Origin: Flavobacteriales bacterium
GTDB lineage: Bacteria; Bacteroidota; Bacteroidia; Palsa-965
Assembly: GCA_002737665.1 (NCBI GenBank)
Contig: NSIF01000006.1
Location: 1 to 47,777 of the forward strand
DNA: 47,777 bases
Reading direction: 5' to 3'
Position numbers and translations under genes: made by a program. Position 1 is the stretch's first letter. The number at the start of each line of letters is the position of its first letter. Positions 2,045-41,131 of this stretch are shown piece after piece. The notes under the pieces are model-generated. The model was not told where the DNA came from, did no database searches, and was given only the letters and a program-made list of their open reading frames with translations.

Positions 2045-2893
2045 TTATTTAATAATTATTTTTTGTGTACTAAGGGAAGCTCCGTTTTCCAATTGAATTA
2101 AATATACACCACTCGGAATTTCTGGAATTTGAACTTCTATAGTTGGTGTATTGCCAATTGATTGTTGTAGTTGTGTAATTTCAATCATTTGTCCACTCAT
2201 TGAAAATAATTGAACGCTCGCTTTCTCATTCTCAAGTGCAGTATATGTTACCGAGATGTGATCTTGCGCTGGATTTGGGTAAACAGAAAAGCTGATATTA
2301 TTCTGTGTGTTTGATAAGATTCCATTTGTTGCGGGCATTACCAACTGTGATGTGGAGTAAATGTGATCACCAGAGGTTATTAAATTACCATTTGCTGCAT
2401 TTCCAGTTACATAAAATGTAACATCACCTATATTCGTACTTGGTGCAGTCCAATTAAAAGAGAAAGTGTGCGAGTTTGCAGTATTTCCACCATTCAAAGT
2501 ATGCACCATATTTTTCCGAACAACACTTGAAACTGTTGCGTTTAATATTTGAGTTTGAGAGTTAGTTACAATTAGTGTTCCAGCATTTTGGTTTGTACTG
2601 CTTAGGCATTCGCAATCAAATCCGAAAAGAGAATTCCCCGTACGTGAAACATTAACGTCAATTGAATAGGTTTGGCCGGGTGTGTATTGCCAATTGATTA
2701 AATCTGTTGAACTGATTGTTACTAAACCTGTACCATCATTTAATACTGATCCTGTGTGACATCCGGTACAAGTACCTTCTCCTGGAGAACCAGTTTTCCC
2801 AGCTTTACCACTATCACTAAGTAAATCAAATCCTGAATTTATCGAAATAATTGTTATCCCCATTAAAAGAATTATGATTTTTGATTTTCTCAT
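2045..2893 (-). CDS. Secreted T9SS cargo with CXXCH motif (choice-of-anchor V / Reeler-like)
   Basis: The 282-residue protein starts with a signal peptide (MRKSKIIILLMGITIISI). Just after it comes a Gly-rich segment with CTGCH, a single c-type heme attachment motif, in the GKxGxTGSPGEGTCTGCHTGS context I associate with the choice-of-anchor V group. A beta-sandwich follows (residues ~40-190) that resembles Reeler-like domains. The last ~80 residues are a type A T9SS sorting domain: SVYPNPAQDHISV, a GQMIEI turn and a terminal GVYLIQLENG...KIIIK strand. It is therefore predicted to cross the outer membrane and sit on the surface or be released. It is the last gene of a four-gene minus-strand run with two heme lipoproteins and a barrel protein. 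Heme attachment and electron transfer are inference. Confidence 0.82.
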   Translation of the reverse strand: MRKSKIIILLMGITIISINSGFDLLSDSGKAGKTGSPGEGTCTGCHTGSVLNDGTGLVTISSTDLINWQYTPGQTYSIDVNVSRTGNSLFGFDCECLSSTNQNAGTLIVTNSQTQILNATVSSVVRKNMVHTLNGGNTANSHTFSFNWTAPSTNIGDVTFYVTGNAANGNLITSGDHIYSTSQLVMPATNGILSNTQNNISFSVYPNPAQDHISVTYTALENEKASVQLFSMSGQMIEITQLQQSIGNTPTIEVQIPEIPSGVYLIQLENGASLSTQKIIIK

Positions 2894-2902
2894 TTTGATT
2901 TT

Positions 2903-3838
2903 TTAAGTAGTTGATTTATTTTTATGTTTAATTGCAAACACACGTGAAATGTTAAACCCAAGACGGATATTACCTTTTAACCAATCACTTTTGGTGTAAG
3001 GTATGTATTGCACTTCGTTCATTCCAAATTGATTCGTAAAATGGAATTGAAAAACGTGTCCTCCAGTTTCGAGATCAAATCCAATTCCTAAAGGATCATG
3101 AAATGTTTCCTTTTTACTAGTATAATTTCCAATACGATATGCGTATTCAAACGTGACTGCAAAACGTTTTGATATTTTATAGCGACCAGAAATACCTGTC
3201 GCAAAAATATCATTTTTATCGGATGCGAAATCAACTATATTGTAATGAATGTAAAACTCATTTAATTCTAATGTTAATCTTTGATTTATTTTTCTTCCAA
3301 TAATCAAGCAAGTAGCATAAGAAATTCGATTCACTGGATATCTATATTTATCAATTCCGGTGAATGCATTATTAGGATCTTTAAGAAAAGTATAATTCAT
3401 AGCACTTTGTAAGGTTACCGAAATAGGAATATGGTTATCCGTTGTTTGTCTTAGCATTTTTATTTTAAATGACGCATCGGCTAATTTTTCGTCGGACGTT
3501 CTTCCAATACCAACCATCAACCAATCAGTGATTCCATAATCTAATGATAAACGAATGCATGCATCACCATCTAATCCAAATGCATTGTATGCGGGATTTC
3601 CATTTCCATTTGCAAATTCCCCAAATCGATGTGCGATTCTAAAGTCCATGGCATTTTTACCCATTGTTTCCATAGTGGGAAAATTAATTACACGCGTGGC
3701 TTTAAATGATGCGGATGTAAACTCATGTGTTGGTTTGCCCAAATAATCTAGACTATCTGCCATTCTTTGCATTACATCATCTTGAGCTATTGACCGCTGG
3801 CTTACAAGTAATAAAAAAACTAAAAATATTTTTTTCAT
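2903..3838 (-). CDS. DUF5777 family outer-membrane beta-barrel protein
   Basis: The 311-residue protein has a clear signal peptide (MKKIFLVFLLLVSQRSIAQ) followed by alternating amphipathic strands typical of a small outer-membrane barrel, such as RIAHRFGEFANG, RLSLDYGITDWLMVGIGR, FAVTFEYAYRIGNY and GHVFQFHFTNQFGMNE. The wording of the N-terminal half (RVINFPTMETMGKNAMDFRIAHRFG) matches my memory of DUF5777. It lies 13 bases after a CXXCH lipoprotein and 9 bases before the T9SS heme-motif protein, so it may be the outer-membrane part of the same module. The biochemical role is not established; a pore or scaffold is inference. Confidence 0.8.
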   Translation of the reverse strand: MKKIFLVFLLLVSQRSIAQDDVMQRMADSLDYLGKPTHEFTSASFKATRVINFPTMETMGKNAMDFRIAHRFGEFANGNGNPAYNAFGLDGDACIRLSLDYGITDWLMVGIGRTSDEKLADASFKIKMLRQTTDNHIPISVTLQSAMNYTFLKDPNNAFTGIDKYRYPVNRISYATCLIIGRKINQRLTLELNEFYIHYNIVDFASDKNDIFATGISGRYKISKRFAVTFEYAYRIGNYTSKKETFHDPLGIGFDLETGGHVFQFHFTNQFGMNEVQYIPYTKSDWLKGNIRLGFNISRVFAIKHKNKSTT

Positions 3839-3851
3839 TTAAAAGTTCTAA

Positions 3852-4229
3852 TTAATTGTTAAGCGCCCCAGCAGTAATCCATATTTCAAATTGTCGTATT
3901 TGACATTGGTTAAGTTGAAAATTTTGTGGCATTTGGCTCCAACCACCACTTCCTTCCAAATGACCAAGCAATTCATTGTTAGTCAGTGCATATTGTTGTA
4001 AGGAAGCGTGTGTGTCAATGCGGAAACTACTGGAAGGAGCTGTTCCAGAATGACAGGAAAAACAATAGTTTTCCATTAATGGCAAAATATGGTTTGAATA
4101 TGAAATTGTAGATACAGTATCGCATGGGGTAAACAAATCAGCACCTACATAAAGTTCGCTAAGTTTATCTTTATAGCAAGCTGTAAATAGTGTAGAAAAA
4201 AGAAGAAATACTAAAAATATTTTTCTCAT
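3852..4229 (-). CDS. Monoheme cytochrome c-like lipoprotein (CXXCH)
   Basis: This 125-residue protein has a lipoprotein signal peptide with the lipobox Cys in LFTAC (residue ~18). The CFSCH motif at about residue 56 is a c-type heme site, and a later WSQMPQN...QIRQFEIWITAGA segment matches the C-terminal Met-ligand helix of small cytochrome c domains. It is therefore probably a membrane-tethered monoheme protein of the periplasm or cell surface. It lies 6 bases downstream of a related lipoprotein gene in the same operon. Heme loading is inferred from the motif only; partners and redox direction are unknown. Confidence 0.78.
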   Translation of the reverse strand: MRKIFLVFLLFSTLFTACYKDKLSELYVGADLFTPCDTVSTISYSNHILPLMENYCFSCHSGTAPSSSFRIDTHASLQQYALTNNELLGHLEGSGGWSQMPQNFQLNQCQIRQFEIWITAGALNN

Positions 4230-4235
4230 GCTAAC

Positions 4236-4610
4236 CTAATTGTCTTTTGCTCCTTGTGCAATCCAAACATAAATAGAATTAATATTTTTAGTACTCAAAG
4301 TTAGGTATGGATCTTTTGGCATTTTATCTTCTGTTGAAGAACTGATAAGCGTTTTATATAACTTACTGTTTTTCGGATTGCCAGGAATGATATATTCTGG
4401 GTTACTAATTTCATCGTAGGTAATTAATGGGAATGCACTACCATAAGTTAATTGTCCATGACAGCCTGCGTGTTGGCAGCTATTTGTAATGATTGGACGA
4501 ATAACTGTGTCAAAACTTATTTGCTGATTTGGAATTATTGGCTCATGCGTGCAGGAGCTTAAATAGAGAGCAGAAAAAACAAGTAAAATATATATCCTAT
4601 TTTTTAGCAT
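4236..4610 (-). CDS. Cytochrome c-like lipoprotein with atypical CX4CH motif
   Basis: This 124-residue protein has a lipobox (LYLSSC, Cys at ~20). At the position where its neighbour has CXXCH it has CQHAGCH, that is CX4CH. The rest of the small cytochrome fold is recognisable: EDKMPKDPYLTLS, giving a possible Met ligand, then INSIYVWIAQGAKDN, closely parallel to the end of the next gene product. This suggests two divergent paralogues in tandem. It is the first gene of the four-gene run. A TAnnTTTA-like sequence on the minus strand (4625-4632) might be its promoter, but no TTG is found at the right distance. Whether CX4CH carries covalent heme is uncertain. Confidence 0.75.
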   Translation of the reverse strand: MLKNRIYILLVFSALYLSSCTHEPIIPNQQISFDTVIRPIITNSCQHAGCHGQLTYGSAFPLITYDEISNPEYIIPGNPKNSKLYKTLISSSTEDKMPKDPYLTLSTKNINSIYVWIAQGAKDN

Positions 4611-27575: not shown

Positions 27576-28844
27576 TTAATGATCATTGAGAGGTAATCCT
27601 CTTTTTTCATATTCAATCCAATTTAAATATTCATCTCCTTTTCTTTGTTCTTCCATAGTAATACAGTCATTTACAGGACAAACAATTTTACATAAATTAC
27701 AACCAACGCATTCTTCTTCTTTTATTGTGTAAGTGTTATAGGGATGACCTTGTTTTATAGCTATGGCTTGGTGAGAAGTATCTTCACAAGCGATGTAACA
27801 TAATCCGCAGTTGATGCATTTGGCAGGATCTATTTTTGCTACTATGTGAAAATTTATATCGAGTTCTTCCCATTTGATTATTTTGGGAACCGACAGTCCT
27901 ATGAAATCATTTATATTTTTATATCCTTTATCATCCATCCAATTGTTCAATCCATCGCATAGATCTGTAATAATTTTAAATCCACTAATCATAGCTGCAG
28001 TACACACTTGTACATTACTAGCTCCAAGTAACATAAATTCTGCGGCATCTTTCCATGTTGATATTCCACCAATGCCAGAGATTGGTACGTTGCGAATTTT
28101 TTCATCTTGTGATAATGTGGTCAGCATCTTTAGTGCAATTGGTTTTACTGCTGGTCCACAGTATCCACCAAAAACAGATTTTCCTCCTACATTCGGATTA
28201 GGCACAAGCGTATCTAAATCAATACCTGTTACTGATTGAATTGTATTGATTAGTGAAAGTCCATTTGTTCCGCCTTCAATTGCTGCCAATGCGCCAGGAA
28301 CAGCAGAATGTACATTTGGAGTAAGTTTTGTTATTACAGGAATTGTTGCTACTTCCATTACCCATTCTACAACCATTTTAGCAATTTCAGGATCCTGTCC
28401 AACCGCAGCACCCATTCCTCTTTCCACCATACCATGAGGACAACCGAAATTTAATTCTAATCCATGCGCTCCCGTGTCTTCTGCTTTCTTAACCATTTCA
28501 TGCCAACTTTTTCTATCGTTATCAGCCATTAAAGAAACAATCATGGCACGATCTGGAAATAATCTTAGCACTTCTTTTATTTCTCTCAAATTCAGTTCAA
28601 GTGGTCGATCGGAAATGAGTTCAATATTATTAAATCCTATTGTTTTTGTTCCGTTGTAATTTAATGAAGAATACCTTGAGGAAACATTTTTCACCTGCGT
28701 TCCAAGCGTTTTCCATACAACACCACCCCAGCCGGCTTCATACGCACGAAGTACATTTATTTTTTTATCAGTCGGTGGCGCAGAAGCCAACCAAAAAGGA
28801 TTTGGAGATTTTATTCCAAGAAATACTGATTCTAAATTTGCCAT
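27576..28844 (-). CDS. preA: NAD-dependent dihydropyrimidine dehydrogenase, subunit PreA
   Basis: The 422-residue protein reduces uracil and thymine to the dihydro forms together with PreT. The FMN barrel holds the catalytic Cys in LNFGCPHGM (~residue 134), the substrate-binding NT pair in SLINTIQSVTG and the GIGGISTW phosphate segment. Two 4Fe-4S clusters lie at the C-terminus (CINCGLCYIAC and CVGCNLCKIVCP). Length fits E. coli PreA (411). It is the last gene of the seven-gene operon. The retained Cys and GERGMG-like loop (ERGMGAAVGQ) support pyrimidine rather than orotate reduction. Confidence 0.94.
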   Translation of the reverse strand: MANLESVFLGIKSPNPFWLASAPPTDKKINVLRAYEAGWGGVVWKTLGTQVKNVSSRYSSLNYNGTKTIGFNNIELISDRPLELNLREIKEVLRLFPDRAMIVSLMADNDRKSWHEMVKKAEDTGAHGLELNFGCPHGMVERGMGAAVGQDPEIAKMVVEWVMEVATIPVITKLTPNVHSAVPGALAAIEGGTNGLSLINTIQSVTGIDLDTLVPNPNVGGKSVFGGYCGPAVKPIALKMLTTLSQDEKIRNVPISGIGGISTWKDAAEFMLLGASNVQVCTAAMISGFKIITDLCDGLNNWMDDKGYKNINDFIGLSVPKIIKWEELDINFHIVAKIDPAKCINCGLCYIACEDTSHQAIAIKQGHPYNTYTIKEEECVGCNLCKIVCPVNDCITMEEQRKGDEYLNWIEYEKRGLPLNDH

Positions 28845-28882
28845 TTATTTTTATTTTGGAAATTCGATAATTAAATATTGAT

Positions 28883-30223
28883 TTATAATCCAAGGTATTC
28901 TAAAATTCCTTTTGCACCCATTTTTCCTGCTTGTACAGCGTCAACTACTTCCTTGCCACCATTTACTGCATCGCCTCCGGCAAATACACCTTTTAGGTTT
29001 GTTGCATTGTTTTTATCAATCATTATTTTTCCAGCTTTATTTTGAAGAGATGATGTGTTTACTATTTTTTCAAATGGAATTTGGCCCGCGGCTTTTATAA
29101 CCATATCTACGTCAATAGTAAATGTTTCACCTGTATCAACTGGCGCTCTTCTACCTGAGGCATCAGGCTCACCAAGCATTATTTTATTGCAAACAAGTTT
29201 TTTTACTTTACCATTTTCACCAATTATTTCTTTCGGACTTGCGAGCCAGATAAAAGTACATCCATCGAGTTTCGCTAAATCAAGTTCTACTTGAGTACAA
29301 GGTTTTTCGTTTTCTGTTCTACGATAAATCATTGTTACTTCTTTTGCACCTAACCTTTTTGATTGTGTGGCGGCATCAATTGCCGTCATTCCCATACCAA
29401 TTACTGCAACATGATCACCAACTGAAATTTTTGAATAATCATTGGTTCGCAAATCATAGATAAATGAAATTGCATCGATGACACCATCTAATTCCTCTCC
29501 TGGTATATTTAGAGATCGAGCAATTCCAACACCGATTGCTAAAAATACAGCATCATAATTTTTGTCAAGTTCTTCGAGAGAAATATTTTTTCCAAGTTCT
29601 TTTTTATATTGTACATCAATACCTCCAATAGAAAGTATATAATCTACTTCATCTTTACAAAACTCTGGAGTAACCTTGTAAGCAGCAACTCCGTAAGTCA
29701 TTAAACCACCACTTTTTTCTTCTTTTTCAAAAATAGTAACATCAATACCTTCTCTTGATAAAGCATGTGCGCATGACAAGCCAGCAGGTCCAGCGCCAAC
29801 AACAGCCACTTTTTTTCCAGTATTTTTTTTTCGGTCGAATAATTTCCAATTATTTGATATTGCTTTTTCTGTTGAGTAACGTTGTAGTTTTGCAATGTTA
29901 ATGGGCTCTTCCTCCATTAAATTAAAAACGCAAGCACCTTCACAAAGTTTTTCCACAGGACAAACTTTAGAACAACCTGCACCCATAATGTTGGATGTTA
30001 AAATTGTTTTAGCTGATCCTTTAACATTGCCAGTGGTAATTTGTTTGATGAATAGCGGAACATCAATACTAGTAGGACATGATTTTGTGCACGGGGCATC
30101 ATAACAATTAATGCATCGACTTGCTTCAATTAATGCACCTTCATCTTGCTCATAAGGAGGATGGATGTCGGAGAAATTTGCAATAAAATCTTTTTCTGTT
30201 AAACGATTACTTTGTATGGACAT
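28883..30223 (-). CDS. preT: NAD-dependent dihydropyrimidine dehydrogenase, subunit PreT
   Basis: The 446-residue flavoprotein passes electrons from NAD(P)H to PreA. The N-terminal Cys-rich domain (CINCYDAPCTKSCP, then GCSKVCPVEKLCEGAC) holds iron-sulfur clusters as in glutamate synthase small subunits. The FAD fold begins with VAVVGAGPAGLSCAHAL (~142) and the second Rossmann fold with VIGMGMTAIDAA (~260). The FAGGDAVNGG motif near the end closes the FAD site. It lies 38 bases upstream of preA, whose product it partners. Confidence 0.93.
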   Translation of the reverse strand: MSIQSNRLTEKDFIANFSDIHPPYEQDEGALIEASRCINCYDAPCTKSCPTSIDVPLFIKQITTGNVKGSAKTILTSNIMGAGCSKVCPVEKLCEGACVFNLMEEEPINIAKLQRYSTEKAISNNWKLFDRKKNTGKKVAVVGAGPAGLSCAHALSREGIDVTIFEKEEKSGGLMTYGVAAYKVTPEFCKDEVDYILSIGGIDVQYKKELGKNISLEELDKNYDAVFLAIGVGIARSLNIPGEELDGVIDAISFIYDLRTNDYSKISVGDHVAVIGMGMTAIDAATQSKRLGAKEVTMIYRRTENEKPCTQVELDLAKLDGCTFIWLASPKEIIGENGKVKKLVCNKIMLGEPDASGRRAPVDTGETFTIDVDMVIKAAGQIPFEKIVNTSSLQNKAGKIMIDKNNATNLKGVFAGGDAVNGGKEVVDAVQAGKMGAKGILEYLGL

Positions 30224-30276
30224 AATATTTTAATTAAATTGTATTCAAACGAATTTAATTTTGTTATATACAATAA

Positions 30277-31143
30277 TTATAATTCAGTGAGTCTTCCGTA
30301 TGTTTCTGGTCTTCTATCTCTGAAAAACTGCCAAGTTCCTCTTACTTCTTCAATCATATCCAAATCAAAGTCAGCAACTAATAACTCATCATTGTCTTCT
30401 GATGCACACGCAAATATTTGGCCACGTGGGTTAACGAAATAAGAATTCCCGTAAAATTTTCCAAGGTTCCATGGCTTTTCTACACCTACACGGTTAATGC
30501 AACCCATGAAATAACCATTGGCGACCGCATGGGCAGGTTGTTCTAGTTTCCATAAATATTGTGATAATCCTTGAACTGTAGCAGAAGGATTGTATACTAT
30601 TTCTGCGCCATTTAATCCTAAGCAACGTGCACCATCTGGAAAGTGTCTATCATAGCAGATGTAAACTCCAATTTTTGCATATTTAGTTTGGAAAACTGGA
30701 TATCCAAGGTTACCTGGTTTGAAGAAAAACTTTTCCCAAAAGCCAGATGTTTGTGGAATGTGATTTTTTCGGTATTTACCAAGATATGTACCATCTGCAT
30801 CAATTACAGCTGCTGTATTATACAATACGCCTTCTTGTTCTTTTTCGTAGATTGGAACAATGATAACCATTTGGTATTTTTTTGCATAGGTAGCCAATAA
30901 TTCTGTTGTAGGTCCAGGTACAGCTTCAGCAGAGGCATACCATTTTCTATCTTGTCCAGGACAAAAGTAGGGTGTGTTGAATATTTCCTGCAGACAAAGT
31001 ATTTGAACTCCTTTTTCTCCAGCTTCTATAATGTATGGAATATGTTTTTGCACCATTGCATCACATATTTCTTTAACGGTGCCTTCCCCTTCTGTGAGTG
31101 GAAGACTCATCTGAATTAGTCCTGATTTGATAATTCTTGCCAT
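30277..31143 (-). CDS. Nitrilase-family amidohydrolase, likely beta-ureidopropionase
   Basis: The 288-residue C-N hydrolase has the full Glu-Lys-Cys triad: Glu in LCLQEIFNTPYF, Lys in GKYRKNHIP and Cys in VYICYDRHFPDGAR. The wording around these sites matches N-carbamoyl-beta-alanine (beta-ureidopropionate) amidohydrolases, which release beta-alanine, CO2 and ammonia. Its position between hydA and preT supports this as the third step of reductive pyrimidine breakdown. The closest alternative is an N-carbamoylputrescine amidase, which would not fit the neighbours. Confidence 0.9.
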   Translation of the reverse strand: MARIIKSGLIQMSLPLTEGEGTVKEICDAMVQKHIPYIIEAGEKGVQILCLQEIFNTPYFCPGQDRKWYASAEAVPGPTTELLATYAKKYQMVIIVPIYEKEQEGVLYNTAAVIDADGTYLGKYRKNHIPQTSGFWEKFFFKPGNLGYPVFQTKYAKIGVYICYDRHFPDGARCLGLNGAEIVYNPSATVQGLSQYLWKLEQPAHAVANGYFMGCINRVGVEKPWNLGKFYGNSYFVNPRGQIFACASEDNDELLVADFDLDMIEEVRGTWQFFRDRRPETYGRLTEL

Positions 31144-31234
31144 ATTTTTTTTGTTAATTAGTTAATTAAAGTAGAATTTTTCTATAATTTTTATTGTGAA
31201 GTAGCTTCTTAATTAATCTGTTGTTATTTTATAT

Positions 31235-32620
31235 TTAAATGATAGATGAAACTTTATTTCTTTTGATAAATTTTCCGTATCCTTTCTTTGTCATTAATTT
31301 ATTATTGTCAACAACAACCTTTCCTCTTAAAATTATTGTTTTGCACTTTCCTTTTATTTCCCATCCTTCATAACTTGAATAATCGCAATTCATATGATGT
31401 GTGTTTACAGAAATTAGGTGTTTTTCATTGGGATCAAAAATTACAATGTCTGCATCTGAACCAACTGCAATAGTTCCTTTTTGTGGATACATACCGAATA
31501 TTTTAGCCACATTGGTTGAGGTTACTTCGACAAATTTGTTTAAACTTATTTTATTTTTAGTTACTCCTTCTGAAAATAGTAATTCCATTCGATGTTCAAT
31601 GGCTGGATGACCATTTGGGATTTTAGAAAAATCATTCTCGCCCATTTTTTTTTGCTCCCACATAAAGGGGCAATGGTCGGTCGCAACAATTTGTACTAAT
31701 CCTTGGTTGATGCCTGCCCACAAAGTAGCTTGATCTTTTTTCTCGCGCAGAGGAGGGCTCATTACCCATTTGGCAGATTCAAATCCTTTGTCGTACAATG
31801 AAGCATCCAATACTAAATACTGAATACAGGTTTCTACATACACTTTTTGATTTCTCTTTGTAGCATCTCTTATATGATTCAGAGCGCCTTCACAGGTCAT
31901 GTGAACTACATATGCAGGAACGCCAGTGTGTTGTGCCATGTCTGCAAATCTGCTTGTTGCTTCGGCCTCTGTAATTTCTGGTTGAGAAATATAATGATAC
32001 AAAGGTGAAAGTTTTTTTTCTGACTTATGTTTTGCAACAAGGAAGTCAATCATGTCTCCATTGGTTGCATGTGTGGTTACCATCCCACCATGTTTTTTCA
32101 CCTCGTTCATTAATCCTACCATTTGTCGGTCATCAATCATTAATGCACCTTTATAGGCCATAAATGTTTTGAATGAACTGATGCCTTCTTTTTCTATTAT
32201 ATCTTTTATCTCAGCTTTAGTGTCCTCATTGAAATCGGTTACTGCCATGTGAAAAGAATAATCGGAAACAGTATTTCCATCAGAGCGTCCTTTCCATTCT
32301 TTTAATGCAGCATGGAGTGATTTACCTTGTGTTTGCAGAATGAAATCAATAACCATAGTTGTTCCGCCGAAAAGAGCTGCTGTTGTACCTGTTTCATAAT
32401 TATCGCTTGAATAGGTCCCCATAAAAGGCATCTCTAGATGTACGTGAGGGTCAATTCCACCTGGAATCACTAGTTTGTTTGCTGCATCAATTACTTGGTC
32501 GCTTTCTCTTGCAATAAGTGATTGTCCAATTGTAATTATTTTTTCATCTTCAATAAGAATATCTGCAACGTAATCGTCCGTAGCAGTTATTATTCTTCCA
32601 TTTTTTATAAGTAAGGCCAT
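31235..32620 (-). CDS. hydA: Dihydropyrimidinase
   Basis: The 461-residue cyclic amidohydrolase opens the ring of dihydrouracil and dihydrothymine (and hydantoins). Binuclear zinc ligands are visible: GIDPHVHLEMPF (His-x-His), the Lys carbamylated in FMAYKGALM, His in VVTTHATNGD, His in YVVHMTCEGA and Asp in VATDHCPF. The usual C-terminal GSDADIVIFDPN of the amidohydrolase superfamily is present. Length is typical. It is 21 bases downstream of the NCS1 transporter gene in the operon. Confidence 0.93.
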   Translation of the reverse strand: MALLIKNGRIITATDDYVADILIEDEKIITIGQSLIARESDQVIDAANKLVIPGGIDPHVHLEMPFMGTYSSDNYETGTTAALFGGTTMVIDFILQTQGKSLHAALKEWKGRSDGNTVSDYSFHMAVTDFNEDTKAEIKDIIEKEGISSFKTFMAYKGALMIDDRQMVGLMNEVKKHGGMVTTHATNGDMIDFLVAKHKSEKKLSPLYHYISQPEITEAEATSRFADMAQHTGVPAYVVHMTCEGALNHIRDATKRNQKVYVETCIQYLVLDASLYDKGFESAKWVMSPPLREKKDQATLWAGINQGLVQIVATDHCPFMWEQKKMGENDFSKIPNGHPAIEHRMELLFSEGVTKNKISLNKFVEVTSTNVAKIFGMYPQKGTIAVGSDADIVIFDPNEKHLISVNTHHMNCDYSSYEGWEIKGKCKTIILRGKVVVDNNKLMTKKGYGKFIKRNKVSSII

Positions 32621-32641
32621 ACAATAATTAAATTTAAATAG

Positions 32642-34126
32642 TTAATCCTTGTTATTTGTTTCAAAAGTTTTGGGAAATTTCTTCATCATTATTATGTAAG
32701 TTATTCCAGAAACAAAAAATCCCACAAACCAGGCGTAATTATAAAGTTGCCCAACCCAATTCCAAACAGCTTCTTTTTCAAGTATTTTTATTTGAATTAA
32801 AAAGCCAGGTACATTTGGAAGTATCCCTGCTAATAGGGCAATTAAAGCAAATTTATTAAATCCATTTGTAAAACTATACTCACCTTTAATTTTATACAAC
32901 TCATCTACATTTAAATGTTGCTTTCTAATAAAATAATAATCTGCAATCATGATGCCGCCAATTGGTCCAAGTAAACTTGAATAAGCAATGAGCCAAGTAA
33001 ATATATAGCCAGATGGATCGGCAATAAGTTTCCAAGGAAAAATTAGTAGTCCAATTACTCCTGTGATATAGCCGCCAATTTTAAAGTTAATTTTTGAAGG
33101 AGCTAAATTGGCAAAGTCATTTGCAGGACTTACAATATTAGCAGCAATATTAGTTGCCAAGGTTGATAGTGCAATGGCAAGCATAGCAATAGTGACAAGT
33201 ATTTTATTCTCAAATTTTCCAGCGAGTACAACGGGATCCCATATTGTTTCGCCGTAGATAATTAATGATGCGGAGGTAACAACAACACCAATGAATGCAA
33301 ATAAAGTCATGGAAGCGGGTAGTGCAATTGCTTGCCCCATTACATGAGCTCGTTGGTGTTTTGCGTAGCGTGTAAAGTCTGGAATGTTAAGTGAAAGTGT
33401 TGCCCAAAAGCCAACCATTCCTGTTAACGCAGGAAAAAAATAAGTCCAGAATTCTACGTTTGATTTAAATTTAGACGGGGAGGAAAGAATTGCCCCTAAA
33501 CCATTTCCAGCATTAATGGCCCAGCATAAAAGTGCTAAAGCTGCAATTGGAAGAAAAAATGCTTTAAATACTAATAATTTTTTTATGCTATCTACTCCAA
33601 GGTAAACAACAAACATATTTATTAACCAAAATAAAAAGAATGTAATTGCAGGTCCTGTTTCTAAACTAAAGGAGGTAGGAAAAATTTGTGGAAGTGTTGC
33701 TAATGCAGGAATCCATATTTTTAGCATTAAGAAAATTGCATAACCACCAATCCAAGTTTGAATTCCAAACCAACCACAAGCCACAATGGCTCTTAATAGT
33801 GCTGGAATATTTGCACCGTACACACCAAAACTAGCTCGTGCAAAAACAGGAAATGGAATACCATATTTAGCACCTACTTTTCCATTTAAAAGCATTGGAA
33901 TTAGCACAACTGAATTTCCAATAAAAATAGTTAGTATGGCTTGCCACCAATTCATTCCACCATCAATAAGTGAACTTGCGAGCATGTAGGTAGGAATACA
34001 TAAGCTCATGCTAATCCAAAGTGCCGCATAATTCCAAGTACCCCAAGTTCTGTCGTCCTGTGCTATGGGCGCAAGATCTTCGGAATAAAGTGAATTATTT
34101 TTAATTCGTTCGTTAGAATCGGGCAT
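32642..34126 (-). CDS. NCS1 family nucleobase:cation symporter
   Basis: The 494-residue protein has about twelve membrane helices. NCS1 hallmarks include the N-terminal DDRTWGTWNYAALWISM, FPVFARASFGVYGANIPALLRA in helix 3, the FWATLSLNIPDFTRYAKHQ block and the LGPIGGIMIADYYFIRKQ segment. Members take up uracil, hydantoin, allantoin or cytosine with Na+ or H+. In this operon uracil, thymine or a dihydropyrimidine/hydantoin is the likely cargo. It lies between the aminotransferase and dihydropyrimidinase genes. Confidence 0.92.
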   Translation of the reverse strand: MPDSNERIKNNSLYSEDLAPIAQDDRTWGTWNYAALWISMSLCIPTYMLASSLIDGGMNWWQAILTIFIGNSVVLIPMLLNGKVGAKYGIPFPVFARASFGVYGANIPALLRAIVACGWFGIQTWIGGYAIFLMLKIWIPALATLPQIFPTSFSLETGPAITFFLFWLINMFVVYLGVDSIKKLLVFKAFFLPIAALALLCWAINAGNGLGAILSSPSKFKSNVEFWTYFFPALTGMVGFWATLSLNIPDFTRYAKHQRAHVMGQAIALPASMTLFAFIGVVVTSASLIIYGETIWDPVVLAGKFENKILVTIAMLAIALSTLATNIAANIVSPANDFANLAPSKINFKIGGYITGVIGLLIFPWKLIADPSGYIFTWLIAYSSLLGPIGGIMIADYYFIRKQHLNVDELYKIKGEYSFTNGFNKFALIALLAGILPNVPGFLIQIKILEKEAVWNWVGQLYNYAWFVGFFVSGITYIIMMKKFPKTFETNNKD

Positions 34127-34174
34127 TTTATTTGTACTTAAAACTTATTATTAAAATGAGTTTTTAAACAATTA

Positions 34175-35533
34175 CTAATTACAATACTCATCGGCAACGG
34201 CAATTGCTTTTGAAATAATATCCATTCCTTCATCTACTTGATCTTTATTAATGATTAATGGCGGCGCTGTAAAAATCCAATTCCATCGAACAAAAGTGTA
34301 CATGCCTAGTTCATTAAGTTTGGTCATCACTTTATTCATAATTACCATTTCGTTTGGACTAGCATTCCATGGCGCCATTGGTTCTTTTGTTTTTCTATTT
34401 TTTACTAATTCAATGCATCCTAATAATCCTGTATTTCTGAAATCACCAATGCTCGGGTGTTTGTCTTTTAATTTTTCAACTTGGCTATCTAAATATTCGC
34501 CCATTAATTTAGCATTCTCAACTAAATTATCTTTTTCATAAATATCAATAACTGCGTTTGCAGCGGCGCAGGCTACTGCATGTCCCGAGTAGGTTAACCC
34601 AATTGGCAATGGCTTATCCTCAAATGCTTTTACAATTTCTTCTTTTACTATAAATCCACCCAATGGAATATAGCCTGAAGTCATGCCTTTTGCCATACAC
34701 ATAATATCGGGCTCTACATCATGGTGGTTGATGCCAAACCATTTTCCAGTTCGTCCAAACCCACTCATTACCTCATCGCAAATTGTTAGTATGCCGTGCT
34801 TATCAGCAATAGCTTTAACTTTTTTCCAATATCCAATAGGATATTTTATGCAACCCGATGAGCCACTTTCACCTTCCATTAAAATAGCAGCAATAGAATT
34901 AGGTCCTTCATAGTTAACTATTCTCTCTAAATGAGCTGCCGCATTTTCAGCACATTCATTTGGAGTTTTGCTATTCCAAGGACAACGGTAGAAATAGGGG
35001 TTTTCAACATGGATAAAATTCGGCACTCCTTGACTGTCATGTGGTAATCCTCTTGGATCTCCACTTGCAGATAGTGCGCCATAGGTAGCGCCATGGTAAC
35101 TTTGAAAAAGCGTAATGATTTTGTGACGGCCTGTGTAGAGTCGTGCTAATTTTATGGCATGTTCAACAGCTTCTGTTCCTCCGTTTGTAAAAAATGTTCT
35201 ATTTAATGTTCCAGGACTTATTTCGGCTAATTTTTTTCCAAGTAATCCCCTTGCTTCAGTTGCCATTCCTGGATTTACGTAACTTAATTCAGCCATTTGC
35301 TTTACGACAGCTTCCGTAACTCGTGAGTCGCCATGGCCAATGTTTACATTCATTAACTGCGAAGTAAAATCTAAATAACGCTTTCCACTTCGATCGGTTA
35401 AATAAACACCTTTTGCATTTGCAATATTTATAGGATTTAATCCATTTTGTTTGGACCAAGAAAAAATTGTATGCGCTAAATTATTTTGTAAAATTTCTTC
35501 TTTACTAGAAATCGTTTTTGATGAAATACTCAT
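34175..35533 (-). CDS. Class III aminotransferase, likely beta-alanine transaminase
   Basis: The 452-residue PLP enzyme shows the class III pattern: FTNGGTEAVEHAIKLAR, FQSYHGATYGALSASGD, the DEVMSGFGRTGKWF segment and the PLP Lys in MCMAKGMTSGYIPLGG. Operon context points to beta-alanine (and beta-aminoisobutyrate) as amino donor, giving malonate semialdehyde (or methylmalonate semialdehyde), the substrate of the MmsA encoded 51 bases upstream. The amino acceptor, pyruvate or 2-oxoglutarate, cannot be read from sequence. Confidence 0.88.
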   Translation of the reverse strand: MSISSKTISSKEEILQNNLAHTIFSWSKQNGLNPINIANAKGVYLTDRSGKRYLDFTSQLMNVNIGHGDSRVTEAVVKQMAELSYVNPGMATEARGLLGKKLAEISPGTLNRTFFTNGGTEAVEHAIKLARLYTGRHKIITLFQSYHGATYGALSASGDPRGLPHDSQGVPNFIHVENPYFYRCPWNSKTPNECAENAAAHLERIVNYEGPNSIAAILMEGESGSSGCIKYPIGYWKKVKAIADKHGILTICDEVMSGFGRTGKWFGINHHDVEPDIMCMAKGMTSGYIPLGGFIVKEEIVKAFEDKPLPIGLTYSGHAVACAAANAVIDIYEKDNLVENAKLMGEYLDSQVEKLKDKHPSIGDFRNTGLLGCIELVKNRKTKEPMAPWNASPNEMVIMNKVMTKLNELGMYTFVRWNWIFTAPPLIINKDQVDEGMDIISKAIAVADEYCN

Positions 35534-35584
35534 GTTTGTTACATTAAATAATTAAAAAATATTTTAGATTGAAGCAATAAATTA

Positions 35585-37042
35585 TTAACTCATCCAATTC
35601 GTCTTTGCTTCAGCATTCCATTTGGTCGTCGTCTTTTTGAGTTTTGTCCAAAATGCAATCGAACTTTTCCCTGTTAAATCACCCACTCCAAATTTTGAGT
35701 CATTCCAACCCCCAAATGAAAATGGTTCGCGCGGTACTGGTACGCCAATGTTCACTCCAATCATTCCTGCACTCGCCTTATCTATTACATAACGTGCCAT
35801 TCCTCCATCTTGCGTAAATACGGAAGCAGCATTTCCATATGGATTAGCATTTTCGATTGCTAAAGCTTCGTCTACATCTTTTGCTCTAATAATAGATATT
35901 ACTGGACCAAAAATTTCTTCTCTTGCAACAGACATGTTTGGAGTAACAAAGTCAATTACAGTTGGCCCAACATAAAAGCCACCTTCTTTTCCTTTTACTA
36001 CAAAATTTCTTCCATCAACAAGAATTTTAGCTCCTTGCTTTTCTGCTTCAGTGATATAATTTTCAATGCGTTCTTTTGCGGATTTTGAAATAACGGATCC
36101 TAAATTTTTTCCTGGAATTATTTTTTTTGCTTCGATGCAAATTTGATCGATAATTGCATCTACTGCGCCAACTGCGACCATAGCAGAAGCAGCCATACAG
36201 CGCTGACCGGCACATCCTGACATTGATGCTGTAACATTAGAAGCTGTCATTTTGGGATGTGCGTCGGGTAATACAATTAAATGATTTTTTGCTCCACCCA
36301 ATGCTAAAGCTCTTTTAAAATTAGCCGATGCTCTTGCATAAACTATTTTCGCCACTTTAGTAGATCCTACAAAAGAAACAGCTTCTATATCTGGGTGGTC
36401 GCAAATAGCTTCTACTATTTCACGATCGCCATTTACAATATTTAATACACCATCAGGTAGTCCCGCTTCTTTTAATAATTCAGCAATTCGTAATGAACTT
36501 AGCGGAACAGATTCAGATGGTTTTAAAATCATTGTATTTCCTAGTGCAATTGCGTTAGGAATAGTCCAATTTGGAACCATGCTTGGAAAATTGAATGGCG
36601 CTATGCATGCTACTACGCCAATTGGATAAAAGTCGGTGCGACATTCCACGCCTTTGCTCACTTCTAAAATTTCTCCACCAATTAATTGCGGAAGAGAACA
36701 AGCAAATTCAGTTAACTCAATACTTTTTTCAACTTCTGCTTTTGCTTCTTCAATTGTTTTACCATTTTCTTCATGCACTAATTCGGATAACTCCAACATG
36801 TGTTTTTCTAGCAATGTTTTGTATCTGAAAAAAATCTGGACGCGCTCTTTAATAGGTGTTTTTGACCAAGTTTCAAATGCTTTTTTAGCTGTAACAACAG
36901 CATGATTCAGGTTTTCACTTGTTGAAAGAGGAATTTTTGTTAATAAACTCCCATCTAAGGGTGATATTAAGTCTAGAAACCTATCGGTTGTGTTTGCTAT
37001 CTGAATTCCACCAACATAATTTTTTAGTTCTGGGTACTTCAT
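35585..37042 (-). CDS. mmsA: CoA-acylating (methyl)malonate-semialdehyde dehydrogenase
   Basis: The 485-residue aldehyde dehydrogenase carries the catalytic Cys in SGCAGQRCMAASA (~residue 280) and NAD-binding segments (IAPFNFPSMVPNW, LKPSESVPLS, SFVGSTKVAK). The GQRCMA context and PREPFSFGGWNDSKFG tail identify the CoA-dependent MmsA/IolA group. It would convert malonate semialdehyde to acetyl-CoA, and methylmalonate semialdehyde from thymine to propionyl-CoA. It is the first gene of the pyrimidine operon and has a near-consensus promoter 41 bases upstream. Confidence 0.92.
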   Translation of the reverse strand: MKYPELKNYVGGIQIANTTDRFLDLISPLDGSLLTKIPLSTSENLNHAVVTAKKAFETWSKTPIKERVQIFFRYKTLLEKHMLELSELVHEENGKTIEEAKAEVEKSIELTEFACSLPQLIGGEILEVSKGVECRTDFYPIGVVACIAPFNFPSMVPNWTIPNAIALGNTMILKPSESVPLSSLRIAELLKEAGLPDGVLNIVNGDREIVEAICDHPDIEAVSFVGSTKVAKIVYARASANFKRALALGGAKNHLIVLPDAHPKMTASNVTASMSGCAGQRCMAASAMVAVGAVDAIIDQICIEAKKIIPGKNLGSVISKSAKERIENYITEAEKQGAKILVDGRNFVVKGKEGGFYVGPTVIDFVTPNMSVAREEIFGPVISIIRAKDVDEALAIENANPYGNAASVFTQDGGMARYVIDKASAGMIGVNIGVPVPREPFSFGGWNDSKFGVGDLTGKSSIAFWTKLKKTTTKWNAEAKTNWMS

Positions 37043-38185: not shown

Positions 38186-39676
38186 TTAATTCCCCCCGTC
38201 TGCTTTTTTATCTTTTGTAATTTGCCGATTCAAAAATCCTTTCAAACCATCTACATCTAATCGCTTGCCAATTATTTTTTTCTTTTCATCAAGTACATAA
38301 AGTGTAGGTGTACTGTACACATCGTAATAATATTTTGCATTTTGTAATTCTTGTGGGTCTTTCCCCTTCACATTGACCCAATTTAAATTGTTTTCTTTTA
38401 CAAATTTTTTCCAATTAACTGTATCCATATCTGATAGTATAGCATATACTTGAAGAGAAATGCCAGCGCTGCGAAGTGAGTCGTAATAGTTTTTCAAAAT
38501 TGGCATTTCTTTTTTACAATGCGAACAGGTGGGCTCCCAGAAAATAAGTACAGTGTATTTACCTTTCACGGTTTGCAACATCGTTAATTTATTGGAAGTA
38601 TCAGGCAACATAATATTTACGGCTGTCTTACCCATTAATGAATAATCTAGCTGTTTGGCGCGATTAATTATTTTGGTGTTTTGTTCCTCTGTAATCCAGT
38701 TGGCTTGGTTTGTTTCATAATATTTTTTAACTAGATGAACAAATATGGCATCATAACCCATCACTTTAGAAGTTTCATAGGTAACTGTATTGGTAGCTAA
38801 AGTGTATTTAAAAAGATCGTTGGCTGTTTTTGTTTTTTCAAGGAGCCAATCAAGGGATTTTATAATTGAATCGGGATGAGGTGATGTTAGTTTTTCTATA
38901 TAGAATTTCATTTTGTTTGCATATACAGGTGTACGCACAAGTCGTTCATCTGAAAAATTCATTCCGTCCCAATAGTGATTACGGAAATTCCAATAGTTAA
39001 AAGTTGAATCAATTGTTCCATTTGCTTTTTTGGGACATTTATCATATGGAATTTGGTCTGGCTCATCCATAGCTGCTAAAACTTCAGCCATAAAAGTTTT
39101 TGGATGATTCGTTTTGTAGTATGCCCGCTTATAAACTTTAACAGTACTATCTATGCCGGCAGCCTGTTTTTGAAATATTCTAATAGAATCTCTGTTTTTT
39201 ATGCTTTTTAATTTCAATTGAATTGGTTCAAGAAGTTTTTGTTTATCTAAAAGATAATTTAAATATTCATAGAAAAATTTATTTTCATCGCTACCAGAAA
39301 TTTTAGTTTTGCGAATGAAATCAGTTGTATCTGTTTCAAGCGAAAAATTTTGGTCATCAGTAAGAATAATTTCAAAATATTTTTTACTAGGCAACACAAT
39401 AAAATAAATTCCACCTGGAACAGCTTCCTTATTTTTAAATTCCATCCATCCAGAAGTATTGATTTTAGCAGTATCAATAATGGAATTTTTGTCTCCGAAG
39501 TGATGGCCCAATAAACACTGTCCGCCTGTCATTCCTTTAATGTTCACTTTTAGATTGAGTGGTTGGCCTTTTTGCTCGGTTTTTTTTAGCGCTGCACCTT
39601 GTGCAAAACCATTAATTGAAATGACAGCAAGTATAATTGTTTTAGTAAAAAATTTCATTGCATTCATAATTGACAT
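38186..39676 (-). CDS. TlpA-like thioredoxin-fold protein with DUF4369/DUF5106-type N-terminus (paralogue 2)
   Basis: The 496-residue exported protein may start at Met1 or at Met7 (39658), which opens a better signal peptide (MKFFTKTIILAVISINGFAQ). A beta-rich DUF4369-like domain (~35-130) precedes a helical DUF5106-like region (~140-350, with FMAEVLAAMDEPDQIP). A TlpA/thioredoxin domain follows, with redox motif CSHC at 384-387 in FWEPTCSHCKKEMP and the cis-Pro in YSTPTLYVL. It probably reduces or isomerises disulfides in the periplasm. It lies three bases after a close paralogue, so the pair arose by tandem duplication. Confidence 0.88.
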   Translation of the reverse strand: MSIMNAMKFFTKTIILAVISINGFAQGAALKKTEQKGQPLNLKVNIKGMTGGQCLLGHHFGDKNSIIDTAKINTSGWMEFKNKEAVPGGIYFIVLPSKKYFEIILTDDQNFSLETDTTDFIRKTKISGSDENKFFYEYLNYLLDKQKLLEPIQLKLKSIKNRDSIRIFQKQAAGIDSTVKVYKRAYYKTNHPKTFMAEVLAAMDEPDQIPYDKCPKKANGTIDSTFNYWNFRNHYWDGMNFSDERLVRTPVYANKMKFYIEKLTSPHPDSIIKSLDWLLEKTKTANDLFKYTLATNTVTYETSKVMGYDAIFVHLVKKYYETNQANWITEEQNTKIINRAKQLDYSLMGKTAVNIMLPDTSNKLTMLQTVKGKYTVLIFWEPTCSHCKKEMPILKNYYDSLRSAGISLQVYAILSDMDTVNWKKFVKENNLNWVNVKGKDPQELQNAKYYYDVYSTPTLYVLDEKKKIIGKRLDVDGLKGFLNRQITKDKKADGGN

Positions 39677-39679
39677 TTT

Positions 39680-41131
39680 TTATTTTTTTGTTAGCGTGTG
39701 ATTCAAAAACCCTATTAGTGCTTTGGTATCTAATCGTTTTCCTATAATTATCTTTTGTTCATCGAGTAAATACATGGTGGGCGTACTGTAAACATCGTAG
39801 TATTTTTTTAAATTGTTCAGCTCTGTTAAATTTAATGAAGCAACATTAACCCATGTCAATTGGTTTTTTTTAATGTACGCTCTCCATGGCGTTAAATCAG
39901 CTTCGGCTATAATAGCATATACTTCCAGCGAAACGTTGGCCTTGCGAAGAGAATCGTAATAGGTTTTCAAAAGAGGTATTTCTACCGTACAATGAGAGCA
40001 AGTTGGGTCCCAAAAAATAACTACTGTGTATTTTGCATTTATTGAGTACAATGGAACTAAACGATTATTTGTATCAGGAAGATTGATATTCGTTGTCTTT
40101 TTACCCAGTAGTGTATTGGAAAGTGTATTTGCCCTTTTGATAATTTTTTCTTGCTGTTCTTGTGAAAGCCAGTAAGTCTGGTTATTTTTATAATAGTTAT
40201 TTACAATGTGTACAAAAATTGCATCGTAGCCCATTATTTTTGAACTTTCATAAGTGTAGGTGCAATAATATACAGTGTATTTAAAAAGTTCTTTGGATGC
40301 CCGTGTTTTTGCAATTAGCCAATCGCAAGCAGTCATGATAGAGTCAGGTTGTTGTGGCGTAAGTTTATCCAAATAAAATTTTAACTTATACGAAAAAACA
40401 GGAGTTCGAATTAATCGATCATCCGTAAAGTCCATTCCATCCCAGTAATGATTTTTGAAATTCCTATAGTTGAAAGTCGAATCAATTGAACCGTCTGTTT
40501 TTTTAGGGAAATCTGAATAAGGAATCTGATCGGGTTCGTCCATAGCGGCTATCACTTTAGCCATGAAGGTAGTTGGATGTTTTGTTTTGTAATATTCACG
40601 TTTGTAATTTTTTACGCTGTTATCTATGGCTAATGTTTTCTTATTTAATTGTTCAATTGAATCTTTACTATTTGTGACATCAATTACCTTTTTTACCAAC
40701 TCCATTTCCTTTTGACGATCGTTCAAAAAATTTAAGTATTCATAGAAATACTGGTTTTCAGTTGAACTTGTGACTTTCATTTTCGTAACAAAATTATCTT
40801 TTTCGGTTTCAATAGTAAATTGTTGATTCTCATCTAAAATAATTTCAAAATAGGTTTTGTCAGGGAGAACAATTAAGTAAATGCCTCCATCTCTTGGTTT
40901 TGTTGACTTAAATTCAAACCAACCGTTGGCATTTACTTTTACGGAGTCTTGTATGTACTGCTGGTTACCAAAGTAATTTGCTAGTAAGCAGGTTCCTGAA
41001 CTAAGTCCTTCAATGTGAATTTTTAAGTGTAAGGGGTAGGATTTTACTGCATTTGGTTTGGCAGTTGTTTGGGCCGTCACCAATATTGAAAAAGCGATGC
41101 CAATCAGTAAATTTATTATCCTATAGTTCAT
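39680..41131 (-). CDS. TlpA-like thioredoxin-fold protein with DUF4369/DUF5106-type N-terminus (paralogue 1)
   Basis: The 483-residue protein has the same layout as its downstream neighbour: a signal peptide (MNYRIINLLIGIAFSILVTAQ), a DUF4369-like domain (LHLKIHIEGLSSGTCLLANYFG), a helical region containing FMAKVIAAMDEPDQIP, and a thioredoxin domain with CSHC at 378-381 and the YSTPTMYLL cis-Pro loop. Most blocks align residue by residue with the second copy, but the residues after CSHC differ (TVEIP versus KKEMP), which could change partner choice or redox potential. A TATTTTTG sequence on the minus strand (41157-41150) may be the promoter -7 box. Confidence 0.88.
   Translation of the reverse strand: MNYRIINLLIGIAFSILVTAQTTAKPNAVKSYPLHLKIHIEGLSSGTCLLANYFGNQQYIQDSVKVNANGWFEFKSTKPRDGGIYLIVLPDKTYFEIILDENQQFTIETEKDNFVTKMKVTSSTENQYFYEYLNFLNDRQKEMELVKKVIDVTNSKDSIEQLNKKTLAIDNSVKNYKREYYKTKHPTTFMAKVIAAMDEPDQIPYSDFPKKTDGSIDSTFNYRNFKNHYWDGMDFTDDRLIRTPVFSYKLKFYLDKLTPQQPDSIMTACDWLIAKTRASKELFKYTVYYCTYTYESSKIMGYDAIFVHIVNNYYKNNQTYWLSQEQQEKIIKRANTLSNTLLGKKTTNINLPDTNNRLVPLYSINAKYTVVIFWDPTCSHCTVEIPLLKTYYDSLRKANVSLEVYAIIAEADLTPWRAYIKKNQLTWVNVASLNLTELNNLKKYYDVYSTPTMYLLDEQKIIIGKRLDTKALIGFLNHTLTKK

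Follow-up and report, generated by a model that had tools for sequence, protein, structure and literature searches.

A candidate outer-membrane redox module of Bacteroidota built around a DUF5777 barrel and lipid-anchored cytochrome-type proteins

Four closely spaced open reading frames (ORFs) lie on the minus strand of contig NSIF01000006.1 of a Flavobacteriales bacterium (Bacteroidota; GenBank assembly GCA_002737665.1), within a stretch of 47,777 nucleotides that is called the window throughout. They encode, in this order, two small lipoproteins (A and B), an outer-membrane beta-barrel of the DUF5777 family and a choice-of-anchor V protein (anchor-V) with a tail for the type IX secretion system (T9SS). 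The window probably holds a Bacteroidota outer-membrane redox module in which the DUF5777 barrel is combined with lipid-anchored one-electron carriers, A and B. Parts of this proposal differ in strength: judged from their sequences, A and B very probably bind heme c; joint action of A, B and DUF5777 is likely; and electron transfer is favored, with less assurance, over another redox role. The module is taken to be an outer-membrane electron relay because a Rieske protein can replace the cytochrome beside DUF5777, because some operons also encode quinone-type modules of the inner membrane, and because anchor-V is enriched in those operons.

The four genes and their cytochrome-type domains

The original prediction described four tightly spaced genes, and all four ORFs are indeed present, separated by gaps of 6, 13 and 9 bases. 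Gene A (4236–4610) encodes a lipoprotein of 124 residues with one CX4CH cytochrome-type domain, an assignment that draws on a PSCyt1 score, a FoxE profile match and the predicted fold. Its lipobox cysteine is Cys20 by pattern, its CX4CH motif is CQHAGCH (residues 45–51; 4458–4478), and Met97-Pro98 (4317–4322) is followed by a WIAQGA end. Met97 is a likely distal heme ligand, given its conservation and the role of such residues in His/Met cytochromes c. Gene B (3852–4229) encodes a lipoprotein of 125 residues (lipobox Cys18) with one CXXCH cytochrome-type domain, in which the motif CFSCH (residues 56–60; 4050–4064) is followed by Met100-Pro101 and a WITAGA end. The DUF5777 gene (2903–3838) encodes a barrel of 311 residues with 12 predicted strands, and the protein belongs to PF19089 with 290.3 bits over residues 45–301 (cut-off 23.1). 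The fourth gene (2045–2893) encodes the anchor-V protein of 282 residues, which matches NF041895 with 95.1 bits (cut-off 42) and carries CTGCH (residues 42–46; 2756–2770). Its C-terminal sorting domain (residues 204–282; 2048–2284) matches the T9SS type A family TIGR04183 with 54.5 bits (cut-off 23). The barrel and the CXXCH-bearing T9SS cargo protein that had been predicted from the letters alone are thereby confirmed. The source assembly (1.65 Mb, 67% complete) encodes SprA of the T9SS and has two closely placed matches to cytochrome c assembly proteins; the module would need both systems. The next gene downstream of the four is a convergent NUDIX gene.

A is placed among c-type cytochromes by several comparisons. 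Its AlphaFold2 model is a small helical fold (predicted local distance difference test, pLDDT, 88.4), and all nine Foldseek matches in the PDB were chains of c-type cytochromes or of c-type-heme enzymes, at weak values (best E 0.036); for two of these enzymes the c-type heme is presumed. Structural alignment of the model gave FoxE (5MAB) with Z 9.6 over 94 residues (root mean square deviation 2.8, 29% identity), hydrazine synthase alpha with Z 8.2 and PccH (4RLR) with Z 7.6, where, as the aligner itself cautions, values of Z between 7 and 8 may by themselves arise by chance. A profile from alignment A2, whose 40 rows were picked for having CX4CH, found FoxE in the PDB with E 1.6e-7. A PDB search with the single sequence of a two-domain relative (L115) gave chance-level matches only, FoxE not among them. 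The predicted fold of A matches that of the c-type cytochromes FoxE and PccH. Against PSCyt1 (PF07635, cut-off 22 bits), A scores 21.5 and B 14.0, both below the cut-off, and L115 scores 33.3, above it. Neither A nor B matched PF09698, which we take to be the paired CX4CH/CXXCH family of Geobacter, in a Pfam scan with E up to 1.

Many relatives of A and B are single lipoproteins of about 235 residues that hold two A/B-like domains, with CX4CH in 48 of 53 first domains and CXXCH in all 53 second domains. The original prediction had singled out the CX4CH of the first lipoprotein beside the CXXCH of its tandem relative, with the MP...WI..GA end kept in both. The motifs and the shared end stand as described, and CX4CH turns out to be the usual motif of that domain rather than a peculiarity of this protein. 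In a tree of 126 of the 284 distinct domains detected by profile (at least 56 residues each), from which the residues between the cysteines had been removed beforehand, 25 first and 25 second domains were parted without error, with moderate support (0.74). Protein A of the window and the A proteins of five congeners fell on the first-domain side, and the B proteins on the second-domain side. By sequence, A and B appear to correspond to the two halves of a widespread two-domain lipoprotein; B could equally derive from the additional single B lipoprotein that is often encoded alongside the two-domain protein.

Both cysteines and the CH pair are kept in all 284 domains, and Met-Pro in 280 of them; detection by profile could hide domains that have lost CH, so this retention is no proof of heme binding. 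Alignment A2 has C45, C50, H51 and P98 invariant and M97 in at least 90% of rows, where the invariance of CX4CH is no evidence because the rows were chosen for that motif. CX4CH was also considered as a degenerate heme site, an idea rejected on the retention of two cysteines and CH in every domain and on CX4CH being the norm in first domains. Within this set of 284, the cysteines are 4, 2, 3, 5, 6 or 8 residues apart, and spacing does not follow domain type strictly: when each domain is typed by its better-scoring profile, CXXCH occurs in 8 of 98 A-type and CX4CH in 34 of 186 B-type domains. The spacing in the anchor-V motif drifts likewise, from 2 to 5. The residues that follow the lipidated cysteine (window 4551–4553 and 4176–4178 onwards) form recurrent patterns, C.HE/D in 27 of 41 two-domain lipoproteins and C[YF].D in 57 of 142 short ones, with 38 further proteins lacking a lipobox by pattern; these residues are perhaps sorting signals or functional residues.

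Gene neighborhoods of DUF5777

DUF5777 was found in 88 of 99 genomes scanned, the source genome included, and its co-location with the other genes was counted in 40 of these 99 (again with the source genome) against a chance figure that assumes random placement. Among the matches listed, 80 of 150 to the A profile begin no more than 3 kb from a DUF5777 gene, where 0.39 would be expected; seen from the barrel gene, an A/B-type neighbor lies at this range in 49 of 55 loci. Anchor-V matches lie within 6 kb of DUF5777 in 15 of 65 cases (0.34 expected), and 14 of 55 DUF5777 loci have one. Operon contents were surveyed at 189 distinct DUF5777 loci, taken from relatives and from named records, by counting same-strand operon members within five genes. 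The named-record loci are the best 80 of 589 and are biased to close relatives of the query, some loci stop at contig ends, and the simple gene caller fails in some GC-rich loci. These operons hold an A/B cytochrome in 141 loci, a YceI gene in 128, anchor-V in 33 and a Rieske gene in 11. Cytochrome genes concentrate upstream, with 196 hits at positions −1 to −4 relative to DUF5777, 19 at +1 or +2 and one at +3 to +9; YceI stands at −1 in 95 of 187 loci and at +1 in 29 of 186. Record titles assign nearly all the named sources of related DUF5777 genes to Bacteroidota of some kind. One 5-kb contig (L213) titled Comamonas has a Bacteroidota gene order around DUF5777 and is probably mis-binned.

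The order A-B-DUF5777 is kept in all six congeneric genomes that have DUF5777, the source genome included; a seventh congener (72% complete) has no DUF5777. Anchor-V adjoins these three genes only in the window and in one other congener (G003), so that the constant core here consists of three genes. The co-occurrence in other genomes on which the original prediction was made to depend holds for A/B-type genes with DUF5777, as in the 141 of 189 operons; the cargo gene is present in 33. By the same counts the postulated four-gene module gives way to a core with a facultative fourth gene. No YceI gene was seen beside the window-type DUF5777 in any of the six.

At eight loci (Dyadobacter, Emticicia, Runella and two records titled Cytophagales) a Rieske gene lies directly upstream of DUF5777, and the operon has no A/B-type gene; one more Rieske gene stands at −2. 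The Pfam Rieske family was confirmed in all three proteins tested (L164, L169 and L221), each with a lipobox visible by eye. A Rieske protein in the cytochrome's place favors electron transfer over heme transport or delivery. The original proposal that the chain carries electrons or heme is thus supported as to a redox cluster at the outer membrane and not supported as to heme transfer. Heme trafficking, in which A and B would bind the cofactor without a covalent link or only briefly and exchange it with DUF5777, can scarcely be right: C-Xn-CH motifs do occur in three of the four proteins, but the Rieske replacement argues otherwise, as do the two cysteines, the histidine and the near-universal Met-Pro, which are kept as in electron-transfer cytochromes c. 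In one metagenome-assembled genome of Emticicia (L158), DUF5777 and YceI are accompanied by carriers of both kinds, a Rieske-type protein and a two-domain CX4CH/CXXCH lipoprotein.

Thirteen loci join the cytochrome lipoprotein and DUF5777 in one operon with a quinone-type module of the inner membrane, either a 4Fe-4S/NrfD pair (eight loci) or a NapH-like protein (five loci), and each of them also has a soluble cytochrome c gene. Automatic counts of NapH-like proteins were unreliable, because tetratricopeptide repeats cross-match, and were replaced by inspection and a cysteine filter. Among the modules tested, that of L101 resembles DsrOP, that of L088 resembles Qrc and that of L096 is NapH-like. 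Anchor-V is present in 10 of these 13 loci and in 23 of the 176 others, where the p value of 1.4e-6 is only descriptive because the groups were formed after the gene orders had been seen, two divergent loci (L104 and L108) were excluded and the counted loci are related. The anchor-V motif C-X2-5-CH is kept in 36 of 37 distinct entries; the exception is a piece of a gene split by the gene caller or by a frameshift. In L088 (7446–12102) the anchor-V, cytochrome and DUF5777 genes stand beside genes for a seven-CXXCH protein, a QrcB/QrcC-like protein of 993 residues and NrfD, a gene content that recalls operons for Qrc or alternative complex III. A further protein, some 690 to 750 residues long, is encoded in five NapH-like operons (L095, L096, L098, L102 and L105); the two examples tested (L096 and L105) combine a lysyl-oxidase-like domain with a T9SS tail. 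Ethylbenzene-dehydrogenase-like proteins are encoded in six loci (three tested).

The barrel and possible modes of action

DUF5777 is modeled by AlphaFold2 as a 12-strand barrel (pLDDT 90.7). A fold search returned small barrels of many kinds, of which KdgM, FapF and NanC are nearest, and a profile search of the PDB gave no matches. Twelve charged or polar residues (positions 46, 70, 90, 125, 131, 183, 200, 219, 257, 261, 269 and 299) are the same in all 64 sequences compared. H70 (64/64), H198 (62/64) and H261 (64/64) were considered as a metal site within the pore, an idea set aside because H70 and H261 are on the hydrophobic, probably lipid-facing side of the predicted strands. No DUF5777 protein among 195 carries a C-X2-6-CH motif, so no fusion with a cytochrome was seen. 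Since 12 strands are judged too few to hold a cytochrome, a pore for small substrates with cytochromes on the periplasmic side is the simplest picture. The module may then work as follows. A and B would each bind heme c through two thioether bonds, with His/Met ligation, and would be placed on the periplasmic side of the outer membrane, docked beside the barrel. Single electrons would travel between a carrier in the periplasm, which the quinone pool feeds, and a small substrate let in by the barrel. Such working may be likened to the pore with a single heme proposed for Cyc2, and Cyc2-like entry of substrate through the DUF5777 barrel is put forward tentatively, on this analogy, as one possible route. 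At some loci, T9SS-exported anchor-V would add a component on the cell surface.

A longer path has also to be considered, in which electrons would run from the quinone pool to A and B, past or through DUF5777, and on to a surface anchor-V protein with heme at its CXXCH. This trans-outer-membrane conduit would suit the T9SS tail of anchor-V, its well-kept C-Xn-CH motif, the T9SS in the genome and the greater frequency of anchor-V in the quinone-type operons, a comparison whose groups were chosen after inspection. We nevertheless regard it as unlikely, because the predicted 12-strand barrel should leave no room for an embedded cytochrome and because four of six congeners lack anchor-V beside this DUF5777 and 156 of 189 loci have none in the operon. 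In the PDB, anchor-V has six sequence matches with E up to 1: four fall on its tail, and the other two do not exceed chance, cytochrome c'' at E 0.96 being one of them. The chain across the outer membrane is accordingly not upheld in the form in which it was first stated.

The frequency of YceI raises another possibility, that the module maintains quinones or lipids: a YceI lipocalin would carry an isoprenoid quinone, which the cytochrome or Rieske protein would re-reduce or re-oxidize, protecting the lipids of the outer membrane. Excerpts of PMC9113575 name ubiquinone-8 and isoprenoids as ligands of YceI lipocalins and have BcnA, a member of that family, act together with the cytochrome b561 LcoA in the detoxification of lipid peroxyls; lipid protection of this sort has been proposed for the pair. 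The position of YceI directly next to DUF5777 in many loci, and its presence in two thirds of the operons surveyed (128/189), 26 of which have no recognized redox gene, agree with such a role. The idea is doubtful all the same, since YceI is missing beside this DUF5777 in the window and in five congeners, and since L074, where YceI adjoins a second copy of DUF5777, is the one case of it among the 13 loci with NrfD or NapH-like proteins.

A reading in which DUF5777 acts as a porin for some unrelated small molecule and shares no more than regulation with the cytochromes is rather improbable. Two sugar-acid porins, KdgM and NanC, are indeed among its nearest folds, the C-X2-6-CH motif is missing from all 195 DUF5777 proteins, and YceI accompanies the barrel in the 26 loci with no recognized redox gene. 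Yet the position of the cytochrome genes and the short gaps recur in many families, and a Rieske gene can take the place of a missing cytochrome.

The interpretation as an outer-membrane redox module meets several difficulties of its own. Forty-eight of the 189 DUF5777 loci have no A/B-type gene in the called operon: nine of these have a Rieske gene, four another C-Xn-CH protein, 26 YceI with no recognized redox gene, and nine none of these. Some of the 48 reflect truncation at a contig end or failed gene calling where the DNA is GC-rich (L131, L182 and L184). The constant partner of DUF5777 may be YceI nearly as much as the cytochrome (128 against 141 of 189 loci), and YceI, frequent elsewhere, is absent beside the DUF5777 of the window genus. 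The drift of cysteine spacing from 2 to 8 in the A/B family is unusual for heme c. We infer from the model that a 12-strand barrel is too narrow to enclose a cytochrome domain, so electron passage to the cell surface is unproven. The anchor-V figure of 10 in 13 rests on a NapH-like group picked after inspection and on non-independent loci. Among the named DUF5777 hosts, we take Dyadobacter, Runella and Niastella to be ordinary aerobes, for which respiration to external acceptors is not obvious. To our knowledge, there is no measurement of heme, redox potential or partner for any member of the family.

Searches by name for DUF5777 and choice-of-anchor V returned no paper among 5.39 million of open licence, and the titles and abstract openings listed by searches on surface redox in Bacteroidetes mention nothing of this module. 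A family that is widespread yet absent by name from that literature would gain a concrete, testable role through its association with exchangeable one-electron carriers, in some loci with quinone-type modules, and with a T9SS surface protein. This association hints at a compact kind of redox traffic at the outer membrane that is peculiar to Bacteroidota. A broader and speculative view is that DUF5777 is a Bacteroidota-wide minimal electron gate of the outer membrane. Its 12-strand pore would be docked with lipid-anchored CX4CH and CXXCH cytochromes, or with a Rieske protein, and would exchange single electrons with small extracellular substrates while the menaquinone pool is fed or drained; T9SS-exported heme proteins would form a surface extension in some lineages, and the cytochromes would keep two thioether cysteines even though the spacing between these drifts from 2 to 8. 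The natural series of C-Xn-CH spacings (n of 2 to 8) on one domain type is useful for studying how strict cytochrome c maturation is.

Elsewhere in the window, two adjacent genes (38186–41131) encode exported thioredoxin-like (CXXC) proteins of 496 and 483 residues that look by eye like a tandem duplication. The translations of a further region (27576–37042) read, again by eye, like a cluster for reductive pyrimidine degradation, with dihydropyrimidine dehydrogenase-, dihydropyrimidinase- and ureidopropionase-like proteins, an NCS1-type transporter, an aminotransferase and an aldehyde dehydrogenase.

Comparison with known redox systems

Small monoheme cytochromes of the PSCyt1 (PF07635) and PccH (4RLR) kinds are likewise of c type with C-Xn-CH, and PccH matches A in fold, as given above; A differs in falling just under the PSCyt1 cut-off. 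We know of neither in this gene context. BcnA-LcoA resembles the many DUF5777 loci in which a YceI gene stands beside the gene of a redox carrier; the differences are that here the carrier is an exported protein of cytochrome c or Rieske type, that a barrel is present and that the window locus has no YceI. FoxE, an iron oxidoreductase, shares the domain by profile and by model, and it is diheme, as the two-domain relatives here should be. It has CXXCH at both hemes and FoxY and FoxZ as partners (excerpts of PMC10654088), whereas the proteins here are lipid-anchored, have CX4CH in the first domain, have a barrel as partner and are, in the window, two separate genes.

MtrAB, MtoAB and PioAB are alike in that a porin gene adjoins cytochrome genes, here with gaps of 6 and 13 bases, and in their place at the outer membrane. 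MtrAB-type complexes have a barrel of 26 strands with an embedded decaheme cytochrome (excerpts of PMC8406198), in contrast to 12 predicted strands and one heme motif per protein here. Cyc2 also combines a single-heme cytochrome domain with a small outer-membrane barrel, the cytochrome being expected on the periplasmic side. It is, however, a fused cytochrome-porin with a barrel of 16 strands and a motif AXPXFAR[Q/K][T/Y] upstream of its CXXCH (strand number and motif from the same excerpts). The window instead encodes separate lipid-anchored proteins, the first with CX4CH, and a barrel with 12 predicted strands, with no link to iron shown; by inspection, the Cyc2 motif is absent from A and B. 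The module would work like a porin-cytochrome pair but belongs to none of the Cyc2, FoxE or MtrAB-type families.

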